From positions 1-64,000 of the forward strand of contig NZ_JADBGG010000016.1 of assembly GCF_014873765.1 (NCBI RefSeq): a DNA stretch of 64,000 nucleotides, written 5' to 3'. Each line of letters opens with the position of its first letter. Position 1 is the first letter of the stretch. Below are positions 5,979-56,050 of this stretch, in pieces. The notes under the pieces are model-generated. The model searched no databases. It worked only from the letters and a program-made list of their open reading frames with translations, and was not told where the DNA came from. This DNA comes from Desulfomicrobium macestii (lineage in GTDB: Bacteria; Desulfobacterota; Desulfovibrionia; Desulfovibrionales; Desulfomicrobiaceae). Both the position numbers and the translations under genes were made by a program.

Positions 5979-6205
5979 TGGTCAGCAACGAAATCAGAAA
6001 CAACGCGGCGGCCCTGGGAGTTCTGATGCACCAGGTGGGAAACGAGCAGGCGGCGCTGATCCGCATTGTGCGCTCCAACTTGGCAGCAGCTGCGGACACG
6101 GCGGAAGAGATGGAGCGGAACCTTGTGGTGCCCCGCCCCGCAGCGCAGGCAACGGCAGAAGAACCCGAAGTGATCGAAGACAACGAGTTCAAGGAGGCAA
6201 TGTGA
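5978..6205 (+). CDS. small hypothetical phage protein
   Basis: 75 residues from the ATG at 5978, which follows a GGAGGG ribosome site and overlaps the preceding TAA. Mostly helical with an acidic C-terminus (EEPEVIEDNEFKEAM). No recognised family. It lies between the HTH regulator and the DUF3164 gene in the same transcription unit, with one base of overlap at its stop. Confidence 0.6.
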   Translation: MVSNEIRNNAAALGVLMHQVGNEQAALIRIVRSNLAAAADTAEEMERNLVVPRPAAQATAEEPEVIEDNEFKEAM

Positions 6206-6801
6206 TGGAAGGCTACAAGAAGAACGCTGCCGGGCACCTGGTACCCTTGGAGCAGATCCAGCCCATCGACCTGGCTCGGGATGAGCTGGTCGTAGAGAAG
6301 GCGGAGAAGATCAAAGCCGCACAGGAGATGATACGCAAGCTCAAGGCGGAGATCATGGGCGACATTGAGGCTTTCGTGTCCTTGGCTGCTCAAAAGTACG
6401 ACGCCCAGGTGGGCGGGCAGAAAGGCAATGTGACGCTGATGAGCTTTGACGGCCGCTACAAGCTCCGTCGCCAGATCAGCGAAAACCTGTCTTTTGACGA
6501 ACGGCTGCAGGCGGCCAAGGCCCTGATCGACGAATGCATCCGGGAGTGGACCAAGGGCAGCCGCACAGAGCTGCAGGCGCTCATAAATGACGCCTTCCAG
6601 GTCGACCGAGAAGGGAAGATCAATACGGGCCGTATCTTGGGATTGCGCCGCTTGAACATCGACGACGACCGCTGGCTGAGGGCCATGGAGGCCATCTCCG
6701 ACAGCCTCCAGGTGACGGGCACCACGGCCTACTTCAGGTTGTACGAGCGCGTCGCAGGGGACCGTTACACGGCCGTTCCACTGGATATGGCCGCGGTCTA
6801 G
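6205..6801 (+). CDS. DUF3164-family phage protein
   Basis: 198 residues starting at the ATG at 6205 after AAGGAGG. The sequence (GHLVPLEQIQPIDLARDELV near the start, then KGNVTLMSFDGRYKLRR and DECIREWTKGS, INTGRILGLRRLNID) matches the DUF3164 family found in early regions of Mu-like phages. Its role is not known; it is often placed near transposition and recombination functions. It ends the first early gene block before a structured 220-bp gap. Confidence 0.82.
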   Translation: MEGYKKNAAGHLVPLEQIQPIDLARDELVVEKAEKIKAAQEMIRKLKAEIMGDIEAFVSLAAQKYDAQVGGQKGNVTLMSFDGRYKLRRQISENLSFDERLQAAKALIDECIREWTKGSRTELQALINDAFQVDREGKINTGRILGLRRLNIDDDRWLRAMEAISDSLQVTGTTAYFRLYERVAGDRYTAVPLDMAAV

Positions 6802-6815
6802 CCTGTTGACCCCGA

Positions 6816-6995
6816 GTGGCGGCGAGGTCTCTCGCCGTCACGATCGGGCCAGCAGGCGGTGCCCCTGTCGGGACACATACACCTCGGCAACACCTGCAGC
6901 GCAGGCGGTCCCTCCTGGCCGTGACCGCGCCGTAGCACCCACGAGACGGGTGGCTGAATCAAGAGTGGCGGCGAACCATTGGGGTTCGTCGCCAC
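6816..6995 (+). ncRNA. multi-hairpin gene-free region, candidate phage RNA
   Basis: Between 6802 and 7020 there is no credible gene but several stems: GTGGCGGCGAG/CTCGCCGTCAC (6816-6826 with 6831-6841, loop GTCT), a CCTGC/GCAGG stem near 6894-6907, CACCC/GGGTG near 6937-6952, and GTGGCGGCGAACC/GGTTCGTCGCCAC (6965-6977 with 6983-6995). The first and last hairpins share the motif GAGTGGCGGCGA. No T run follows, so these are not ordinary terminators. An RNA or an mRNA-processing region is inferred. Confidence 0.35.
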
Positions 6996-7020
6996 CATCG
7001 AAACAGCGAGGAGGTTTTAA

Positions 7021-7257
7021 GTGGGCGGAACAGAAGCAATCACCAGGGCAAACACCCTAACGATCGACGAAGTGCCCCGCGCCTTCTGTAAGGAGTTCTG
7101 CGCTACGTGGATCGGGCGAAAGCTGCGAAACGGGCAGGATGAGAGCTGGTGCGGCAAGACAGTGTTCCCGCCCGCTGCGGACGGGAAGAGATACTGCGCA
7201 TGGGAATGGAAACGAATCAAGGAGAAGATGAGTCTATGTGCGAAGCTGAAGTCCTGA
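7021..7257 (+). CDS. small Cys-containing phage protein
   Basis: 78 residues from a GTG start at 7021, chosen because GAGGAGG lies nine bases upstream. Four cysteines are spread through the chain (FCKEFC, SWCGK, RYCAW), so a metal-binding fold is possible. It overlaps the next gene by 22 bases in another frame. No recognised family; position is in the accessory part of the Mu-like early region. Confidence 0.5.
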   Translation: MGGTEAITRANTLTIDEVPRAFCKEFCATWIGRKLRNGQDESWCGKTVFPPAADGKRYCAWEWKRIKEKMSLCAKLKS

Positions 7258-7481
7258 GCTGGCTACTCTCAGAAGTCGAACAGAAGTCAAAGGAGCATCT
7301 TGGCAACGTAAAGAGCGTTGTCCGCACCCTCCAACACCGCTGCAACTTCGAGGATCATTACGAGCAGGACCGCGCGGTGGATGCCGTTTTGGAGCTCGAA
7401 GGGTTCGGCGGTGATCTCATGGGTCTGGTTCGCGAAGCAAACCAGCGTTTAAAGGAAAGCAAAGGGCAGGTGGCTGCATGA
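7236..7481 (+). CDS. small hypothetical phage protein
   Basis: 81 residues from the ATG at 7236; an upstream in-frame ATG at 7206 would add ten residues. GGAG at 7221 is the only ribosome site in reach. The chain is predicted helical and acidic. The start lies inside the preceding gene and its stop overlaps the next start (ATGA). No family recognised. Confidence 0.5.
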   Translation: MCEAEVLSWLLSEVEQKSKEHLGNVKSVVRTLQHRCNFEDHYEQDRAVDAVLELEGFGGDLMGLVREANQRLKESKGQVAA

Positions 7482-7645
7482 CAACCGTACTGCTCAAAGT
7501 GTCAACGCTTGAAGCCGTTTCTGGAGACGAATTGACCAGGTACGTTCAGTATTTGGTCATGGGCGTCGAAGAGACCGAACACGACGAAGAGGCCTTTGCC
7601 CTTCTCGACGATGCGGCAATTCTCACGGTGGAGCGGGCAGAATGA
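7478..7645 (+). CDS. 55-residue hypothetical phage protein
   Basis: A short frame from the ATG at 7478, coupled to the preceding gene by an ATGA overlap and to the next gene in the same way at 7642. The product is acidic (EETEHDEEAFALLDDAA). Tight packing with overlapping starts and stops on both sides is the main support that it is translated. No family recognised. Confidence 0.5.
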   Translation: MTTVLLKVSTLEAVSGDELTRYVQYLVMGVEETEHDEEAFALLDDAAILTVERAE

Positions 7646-8049
7646 AGCGCGAAGATTGGAAGAAGATTGAAGACAGGCTGCGCTTTCCAGGTGCCAAGAT
7701 GTCCCTGCGTGTGGATGGCAGGGACGTGGACCTGGCAGTCCGTACTGACAAAATGAAGATGGTCATCCTGGTGTTTGTTGATGGCTGGGCGAAAGGTGCG
7801 TGGCTTGATGTCACGAAACCCTGCCCGGAACAGGCTTACATGAGGCGTCACGAACGCTATCTCTGGCCAAAAAAAGAGCGGGATGGCGCCGCGAAGTTCG
7901 CAAAGCGCTTCGGAAAGCGTGAAGCAAAGAAGTATCTCGGGGATATAGATAAAAAATTCGTGTGTTTTTATCCGTACTTCCCATCAGTTCGCGCCGTCCG
8001 CACTCACTACGAAAAGACCTTCAAGTCCATCGAGCTGGTGGAAGCATGA
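7642..8049 (+). CDS. hypothetical phage protein, basic
   Basis: 135 residues beginning MKREDWKKIEDRLRFPGAKM; beta-rich N-terminal half (VDGRDVDLAV, MKMVILVFVDGW) and a Lys/Arg-rich C-terminal half. It resembles hypothetical proteins seen in accessory early regions of many phages, but I cannot assign a function. Overlaps both neighbours by four bases. Confidence 0.55.
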   Translation: MKREDWKKIEDRLRFPGAKMSLRVDGRDVDLAVRTDKMKMVILVFVDGWAKGAWLDVTKPCPEQAYMRRHERYLWPKKERDGAAKFAKRFGKREAKKYLGDIDKKFVCFYPYFPSVRAVRTHYEKTFKSIELVEA

Positions 8050-9441: not shown

Positions 9442-9867
9442 ATGGATAATCGCATTTTCACAGGCGGCTTTAGTGTAAGGATGGGCACGAAACGGACCCG
9501 CTTTGAACTGTCCCCGGCGGAGATCCACGGCGGCCCTGAGGGCCTTTTCCGTGTCCGTGTCGACCGTCGCTGGCATGACGGCCCCGAGGGTGAAGCGCTC
9601 TTTTTGGACCGAGACGGGCTTGCCCACCTGGTCGCCTCGGCTGCGCTGGGAGCAGTGGGTGTTCCGGCACCACGCCCAAGCCTTCGAAGAGGGGCCAGGG
9701 TCAGCGTGCGAATCGAGGATGAAGGGCGCGCCCGGGTCGAGGGTGGATTTACGGTTGGGCCGTTCATCCTGGCCCATGACGGCCGCTGGATGGTGCCTGT
9801 GACGGTCTACGGTGGAACGCGGTACGTCGCCGCTGAGGATATCGTTGCGAAGGAGGAAAGGCTGTGA
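9442..9867 (+). CDS. hypothetical phage protein
   Basis: 141 residues from the ATG at 9442 with GAGGAG upstream. Beta-rich, with alternating charged segments (RFELSPAEIHGGPEGLFRVR, VRIEDEGRARVEGGF). No family recognised. Its last codons overlap the GTG start of the next gene. Confidence 0.55.
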   Translation: MDNRIFTGGFSVRMGTKRTRFELSPAEIHGGPEGLFRVRVDRRWHDGPEGEALFLDRDGLAHLVASAALGAVGVPAPRPSLRRGARVSVRIEDEGRARVEGGFTVGPFILAHDGRWMVPVTVYGGTRYVAAEDIVAKEERL

Positions 9868-55957: not shown

Positions 55958-55991
55958 TTCACCCGGCGCTGTCGCGCTTTCCTTCCGACTG

Positions 55992-56037
55992 AAAACGCAG
56001 ACGGGCCGGTTCCCTTGAACCGGCCCGTCTGCGTTTT
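55992..56037. terminator. bidirectional rho-independent terminator
   Basis: A 21-bp perfect stem (AAAACGCAGACGGGCCGGTTC paired with its complement, loop CCTT) with A4 on one side and T5 on the other lies between the convergent HDOD and DUF2207 genes, so it ends transcription from both directions. Confidence 0.95.
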
Positions 56038-56050
56038 TCATGCCCGGCGA

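Follow-up and report, generated by a model that had tools for sequence, protein, structure and literature searches.

Hairpins processed by RNase III lie between the early genes of phage T7, and in translational regulators of the 5' leader a structured RNA is found adjacent to the Shine-Dalgarno sequence, together with complementary stretches. A third system is the hammerhead ribozyme of Mu-like phages, whose presence in early operons has, to our knowledge, no settled reason. PMC3088659 describes hammerheads that flank prophage genes and proposes a role for them in the processing of long phage transcripts. According to PMC10085705, looking in the vicinity of known ribozymes is an established route to new RNAs, and the hammerhead blocks come in six orders.

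The locus analysed here lies in a Mu-like prophage within a stretch of 64,000 nucleotides (the window), which encodes a Mu-type transposase, an AAA ATPase at the MuB position, DUF3164 and GemA. Residues 6802-7020 form a gap in the early operon that extends from the DUF3164 gene to a small ORF. The chief new fact is one of synteny: a two-hairpin element stands at the position where relatives with the same small ORF carry a hammerhead. Among open-licence PMC papers, searches brought up none on this element, judged by titles and abstract openings. The features of the locus are as follows.

6205-6801, plus strand: DUF3164 gene (PF11363), the upstream neighbour; Pfam E 1.8e-82
6801-6857, plus strand: hairpin H1, 24 pairs in three blocks, by folding; found in all four distinct copies
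6814-6825, plus strand: GAGTGGCGGCGA, copy 1, 5' arm of H1; exact match
6858-6952, plus strand: conserved spacer that folds no better than chance, with a small hairpin at 6936-6952; by folding
6953-7007, plus strand: hairpin H5, 13-pair stem 6965-6977/6983-6995 and lower stem 6953-6960/7000-7007; by folding
6963-6974, plus strand: GAGTGGCGGCGA, copy 2, 5' arm of H5; exact match
7008-7014, plus strand: Shine-Dalgarno sequence GAGGAGG of the small ORF; by reading of the sequence
7021-7257, plus strand: small ORF, the downstream neighbour, 78 aa, GTG start, VPRAFC motif; homologues lie 3' of a hammerhead in loci L041-L045
10657-10719, plus strand: type II hammerhead directly upstream of GemA, 70.3 bits; context, outside the element

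Two hairpins in the gap after DUF3164

Folding supports two stems only, H1 and H5. H1 starts at the stop codon of the DUF3164 gene and is built from the blocks 6801-6808/6850-6857, 6811-6815/6844-6848 and 6816-6826/6831-6841. H5 contains 19 pairs with internal loops, just 13 of them continuous. The folding energies are -42.1 kcal/mol for H1 (z -6.85) and -30.3 kcal/mol for H5 (z -6.15), and none of the 300 shuffles made for each hairpin was as good. The four or more stems of the initial annotation are not upheld, and the 95 bases of the spacer fold like their shuffled versions (z about 0.2, 167 of 300 as good). The motif that it placed in the stems at both ends of the region is indeed present, with one copy of GAGTGGCGGCGA in the 5' arm of each long hairpin and no third copy free of mismatches in the window. 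An outer helix (6786-6798/6923-6934) had a high probability in one fold and was dropped because its 5' part is coding and changes in L039, L040 and L088 break its pairs; the structure model retains 6794-6798/6923-6927 alone from it.

The whole of 6802-7020 has a fold z of -5.6 on the plus strand and -4.8 on the minus strand (40 shuffles), and the 241-nt stretch around the region gives -4.4 and -5.0, respectively. Among 213 tiles of the window the mean z is -0.34 (sd 1.02, lowest -4.29), and none reach -5.6. H1 ranks second among the local folds of up to 60 nt in the window, both strands included. The strongest is a palindrome at about 55986-56044, present on both strands, with 22 continuous plus-strand pairs and a T-rich end, which is likely a bidirectional terminator.

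A preference for RNA folding over DNA sites had been proposed from paired changes. GGCGGCGAACC/GGTTCGTCGCC does contain the G-T pair, but a G-T pair in one sequence is no paired change. The strand energies are divided: H1 favours the plus strand (-42.1 vs -36.4), whereas H5 is slightly stabler as the minus strand (-30.3 vs -32.1). The description of the region as gene-free holds insofar as nothing points to coding, although mechanical ORFs of 66 aa (minus strand) and 84 aa (plus strand) cross it. The 66-aa frame is open in all four copies of the element, and its eight variable sites fall at codon position 2 (four), position 1 (one) and position 3 (three). A conserved protein would not be expected to vary in this way, and a protein is unlikely. 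A CRISPR-repeat mimic was also considered; no cluster of similar repeats appeared in the host genome.

Copies and conservation of the element

Through DUF3164, 48 viral loci and 29 genome loci (L095-L123) were gathered. Four distinct versions of the element were found, namely that of the window (identical in L038), L039, L040 and L088/L091, with identities to 6802-7008 of 98.6% for L039 and 97.6% for both L040 and L088/L091. None of the 70 pairs is changed on both sides among these near-identical homologues, so that the compensatory changes called for by the earlier folding proposal were not found, in sequences too alike for this to count. Three one-sided changes keep the pairing (two from C-G to U-G, one from U-A to U-G), and one pair is broken, in L040. 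At the H5 position 6957/7003, which was spotted post hoc, the window has A/A, L040 has A/U, and L039 and L088 both have G/U. With four homologues this alike, covariation neither favours nor counts against RNA folding.

Compared with the flanking genes, the element is somewhat more conserved in L040 and L091. Differences number 5/206 in the element and 37/597 in the neighbour for L040 (Fisher p 0.04, uncorrected), and 5/207 and 15/223 for L091 (p 0.04, uncorrected); the uncorrected p values for the flanking genes in these two copies are 0.04, 0.04 and 0.009. In L039, by contrast, DUF3164 (98.5%) and the element (98.6%) are equally conserved.

Searches for further homologues returned little. By blastn, two chance matches were obtained in phages, and a DNA search of 199 genomes recovered the genome's own copy and otherwise short chance matches. 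A covariance model (R1) added no element in 79 sources; in 348 genomes of the order it listed ten with E of 1 or less, including the own genome, the rest being weak (best 0.07), and the class-level search again covered 348 genomes with the same top matches. Three DNA patterns run against the viral contigs identified no element-bearing contig besides the four known, and the eight matches of one DNA pattern in the genome contigs were all unrelated.

Element and hammerhead at the same junction

In other phages a type II hammerhead often lies directly after the DUF3164 stop. The Rfam scan covered 34 of the 48 viral loci, and 18 of these 34 have a hammerhead downstream of DUF3164, at a distance of up to 600 nt in 12 and up to 10 nt in 7. 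Hammerheads were likewise found in 26 of the 29 genome loci (about 1.5 kb each), within 600 nt in 18 and within 14 nt in 8; several viral and genome loci in these counts are near-duplicates. Fewer loci encode the small ORF, which tblastn across L038-L123 located in two sets, the four copies with the element and L041-L045. Each of the five loci L041-L045 carries an Rfam-level Hammerhead_II 3-4 nt past the DUF3164 stop, whereas the two-hairpin element takes its place in all four copies of the other set. Element and hammerhead thus substitute for one another at this junction. The small ORF is the next gene after the hammerhead in L041 and L044, and lies about 250-300 nt further in L042, L043 and L045, behind another short reading frame (read from the sequence). 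The L041 protein shares 39% identity over 61 residues with that of 7021-7257, and the following gene of L041 matches 7642-8049 at 65%.

In L088/L091 Gam takes the place of DUF3164 as the upstream gene, with element and ORF retained, which indicates that the element travels with the downstream ORF. The gene in L091 is Mu Gam-like (PF07352, E 1e-43), and the sequence shared by L088/L091 starts inside the last codons of the upstream gene. A tblastn search of the loci with Gam gave no output rows.

The GemA-side hammerhead is the sole one in the host genome, and its retention further down the prophage shows that the substitution is confined to one junction. In L091 it is identical at 62 of 62 aligned bases, compared with 79% for the upstream coding sequence. 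L039 lacks a GemA-side hammerhead at about 9780-9860 and has three CGTACGA-type repeats instead, perhaps an operator.

The element sits where the type II hammerhead of Mu-like operons (RF02276) does, a few bases past the DUF3164 stop and ahead of the small ORF, but differs from it in sequence. Neither strand of any of the four copies contains the CUGANGA block, the nearest stretch being a CTGTTGA that is paired in H1, and a GAAA block occurs in the window copy only; consequently, all six block orders given in PMC10085705 are excluded. Rfam detected no hammerhead in 6700-7100 at E up to 10, and the other Rfam 15 families gave chance matches only (E 7.6 and 9.2). A degenerate hammerhead, with H1 as stems II and I and GTGGCGG as loop motif, was tried and rejected. 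The hammerhead profile is silent in the element, the alignment is no better than to shuffles (83 of 400 as good for H1, 203 of 400 for H5), and the H1 score is unexceptional, with 70 of 1308 other windows as good. The GTGGCGG common to the hammerhead loop and the element is a weak argument, with 17 plus-strand occurrences in the window. As far as alignment can tell, the element is not a decayed hammerhead.

Possible functions of the element

We tentatively read the region as an intercistronic mRNA-processing or stabilising element, probably a double hairpin of the RNase III type, which would replace the ribozyme. By its position the element should act at the hammerhead's junction, and two long hairpins suit RNase III. 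The element would divide the early polycistronic mRNA into a DUF3164 part and a downstream part, as the ribozyme would, and the cut would leave a hairpin-protected 5' end beside the Shine-Dalgarno sequence. The likeliest agent would be the host RNase III, the gene of which is present, acting on H1 and/or H5. With 24 and 19 pairs these are long double-stranded hairpins between genes whose order points to a shared mRNA. The T7 hairpins, too, are long and separate the genes of a polycistronic early phage mRNA; the element differs from them in comprising two hairpins, a common 12-mer and a conserved spacer, and its cleavage by RNase III is putative. Counting against processing hairpins are the spacer, whose conservation two such hairpins do not explain, the internal loops of H5, the mixed strand preference and the lack of compensatory changes. 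The hammerhead that the prophage keeps upstream of GemA and the equal conservation of DUF3164 and element in L039 weigh on the same side. Among the functions offered by the initial annotation, a processing element fared best because relatives carry a hammerhead at the same junction. Nothing speaks positively for a small RNA transcribed on its own, since the plus strand of 6600-7300 yielded neither a sigma-70-like promoter nor an intrinsic terminator (a G+C-rich stem and a T run), and nothing besides the presence of hairpins favours an antitermination site.

The element might instead control translation of the small ORF in cis, with ACCUC (6881-6885) or CCUCCU (6911-6916) pairing to GAGGAGG and the hairpins setting an alternative fold. 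This is unlikely, even though the fold of 6799-7020 pairs 6881-6885 with 7011-7015 (p 0.72), the spacer contains one CCTCCT and one CACCTC against expectations of 0.03 and 0.02, and the element goes with the small ORF. The spacer stretches complementary to the Shine-Dalgarno sequence (ACCTC and CCTCCT in the DNA) were chosen post hoc, and the mean unpaired probability of the start site, 0.40, falls within the 0.06-0.70 of 22 other positions (five of them off the exact start codon). As in the leader regulators, a structured RNA abuts the Shine-Dalgarno sequence and complementary stretches are present; in contrast to them, the element comes without a ligand, without covariation and with ordinary start-site accessibility, and no switching ligand or protein is known. 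An action at the DNA level, either through palindromes that bind a protein of phage or host or as a module-boundary sequence for recombination between phages, is improbable. It would fit the 12-mer GAGTGGCGGCGA common to both palindromes, the joining of a different gene right before the element in L088, at GGCCGCGGTCTAG, and minus-strand folds of about equal strength. Against it, the G-T mismatches in H1 and H5 pair as plus-strand RNA only, the window holds no further motif copies with fewer than 2 mismatches, and the relatives have an RNA element, the ribozyme, at the same junction.

It is quite improbable that the early transcript releases a phage small RNA that acts in trans on host or phage mRNAs. 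The conserved unstructured spacer between the two hairpins would suit such an RNA, and bases 6881-6900 form a perfect complement to 20 nt of a host mRNA (L002 1501-1520) from a gene that we take to be mnmE-like from reading its protein. The match has an E of 0.005 and may be due to chance, as 6 of 199 genomes gave E of 0.004 or less elsewhere, and the missing plus-strand promoter and terminator count against this reading as well. A new class of self-cleaving ribozyme, standing in for the hammerhead at the DUF3164 junction in this phage group, is highly improbable. The junction is the hammerhead's own, and the proximity-based search route supports looking there; however, the significant structure is two simple hairpins, with no multi-stem junction or pseudoknot supported, and the Rfam ribozymes gave no match at E up to 10. 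Moreover, ten non-hammerhead candidates found by association did not cleave, according to PMC10085705.

The same gene order with a different structured element at one junction provides a direct natural comparison among phages. If the two-hairpin element is also cut, the shared need would be segmentation of the transcript; if it is not cut, the need would be another, such as 5' end protection or translation.

Other structured RNAs were observed among the loci. The 7085-7200 region of L066 holds a hammerhead and, immediately behind it, a very strong hairpin, GTAGGGTGCGC... (-51 kcal/mol), and the isrK and C4 antisense RNA families are adjacent in two Mu-like contigs (L056, 8721-8900, and L057, 9303-9490).
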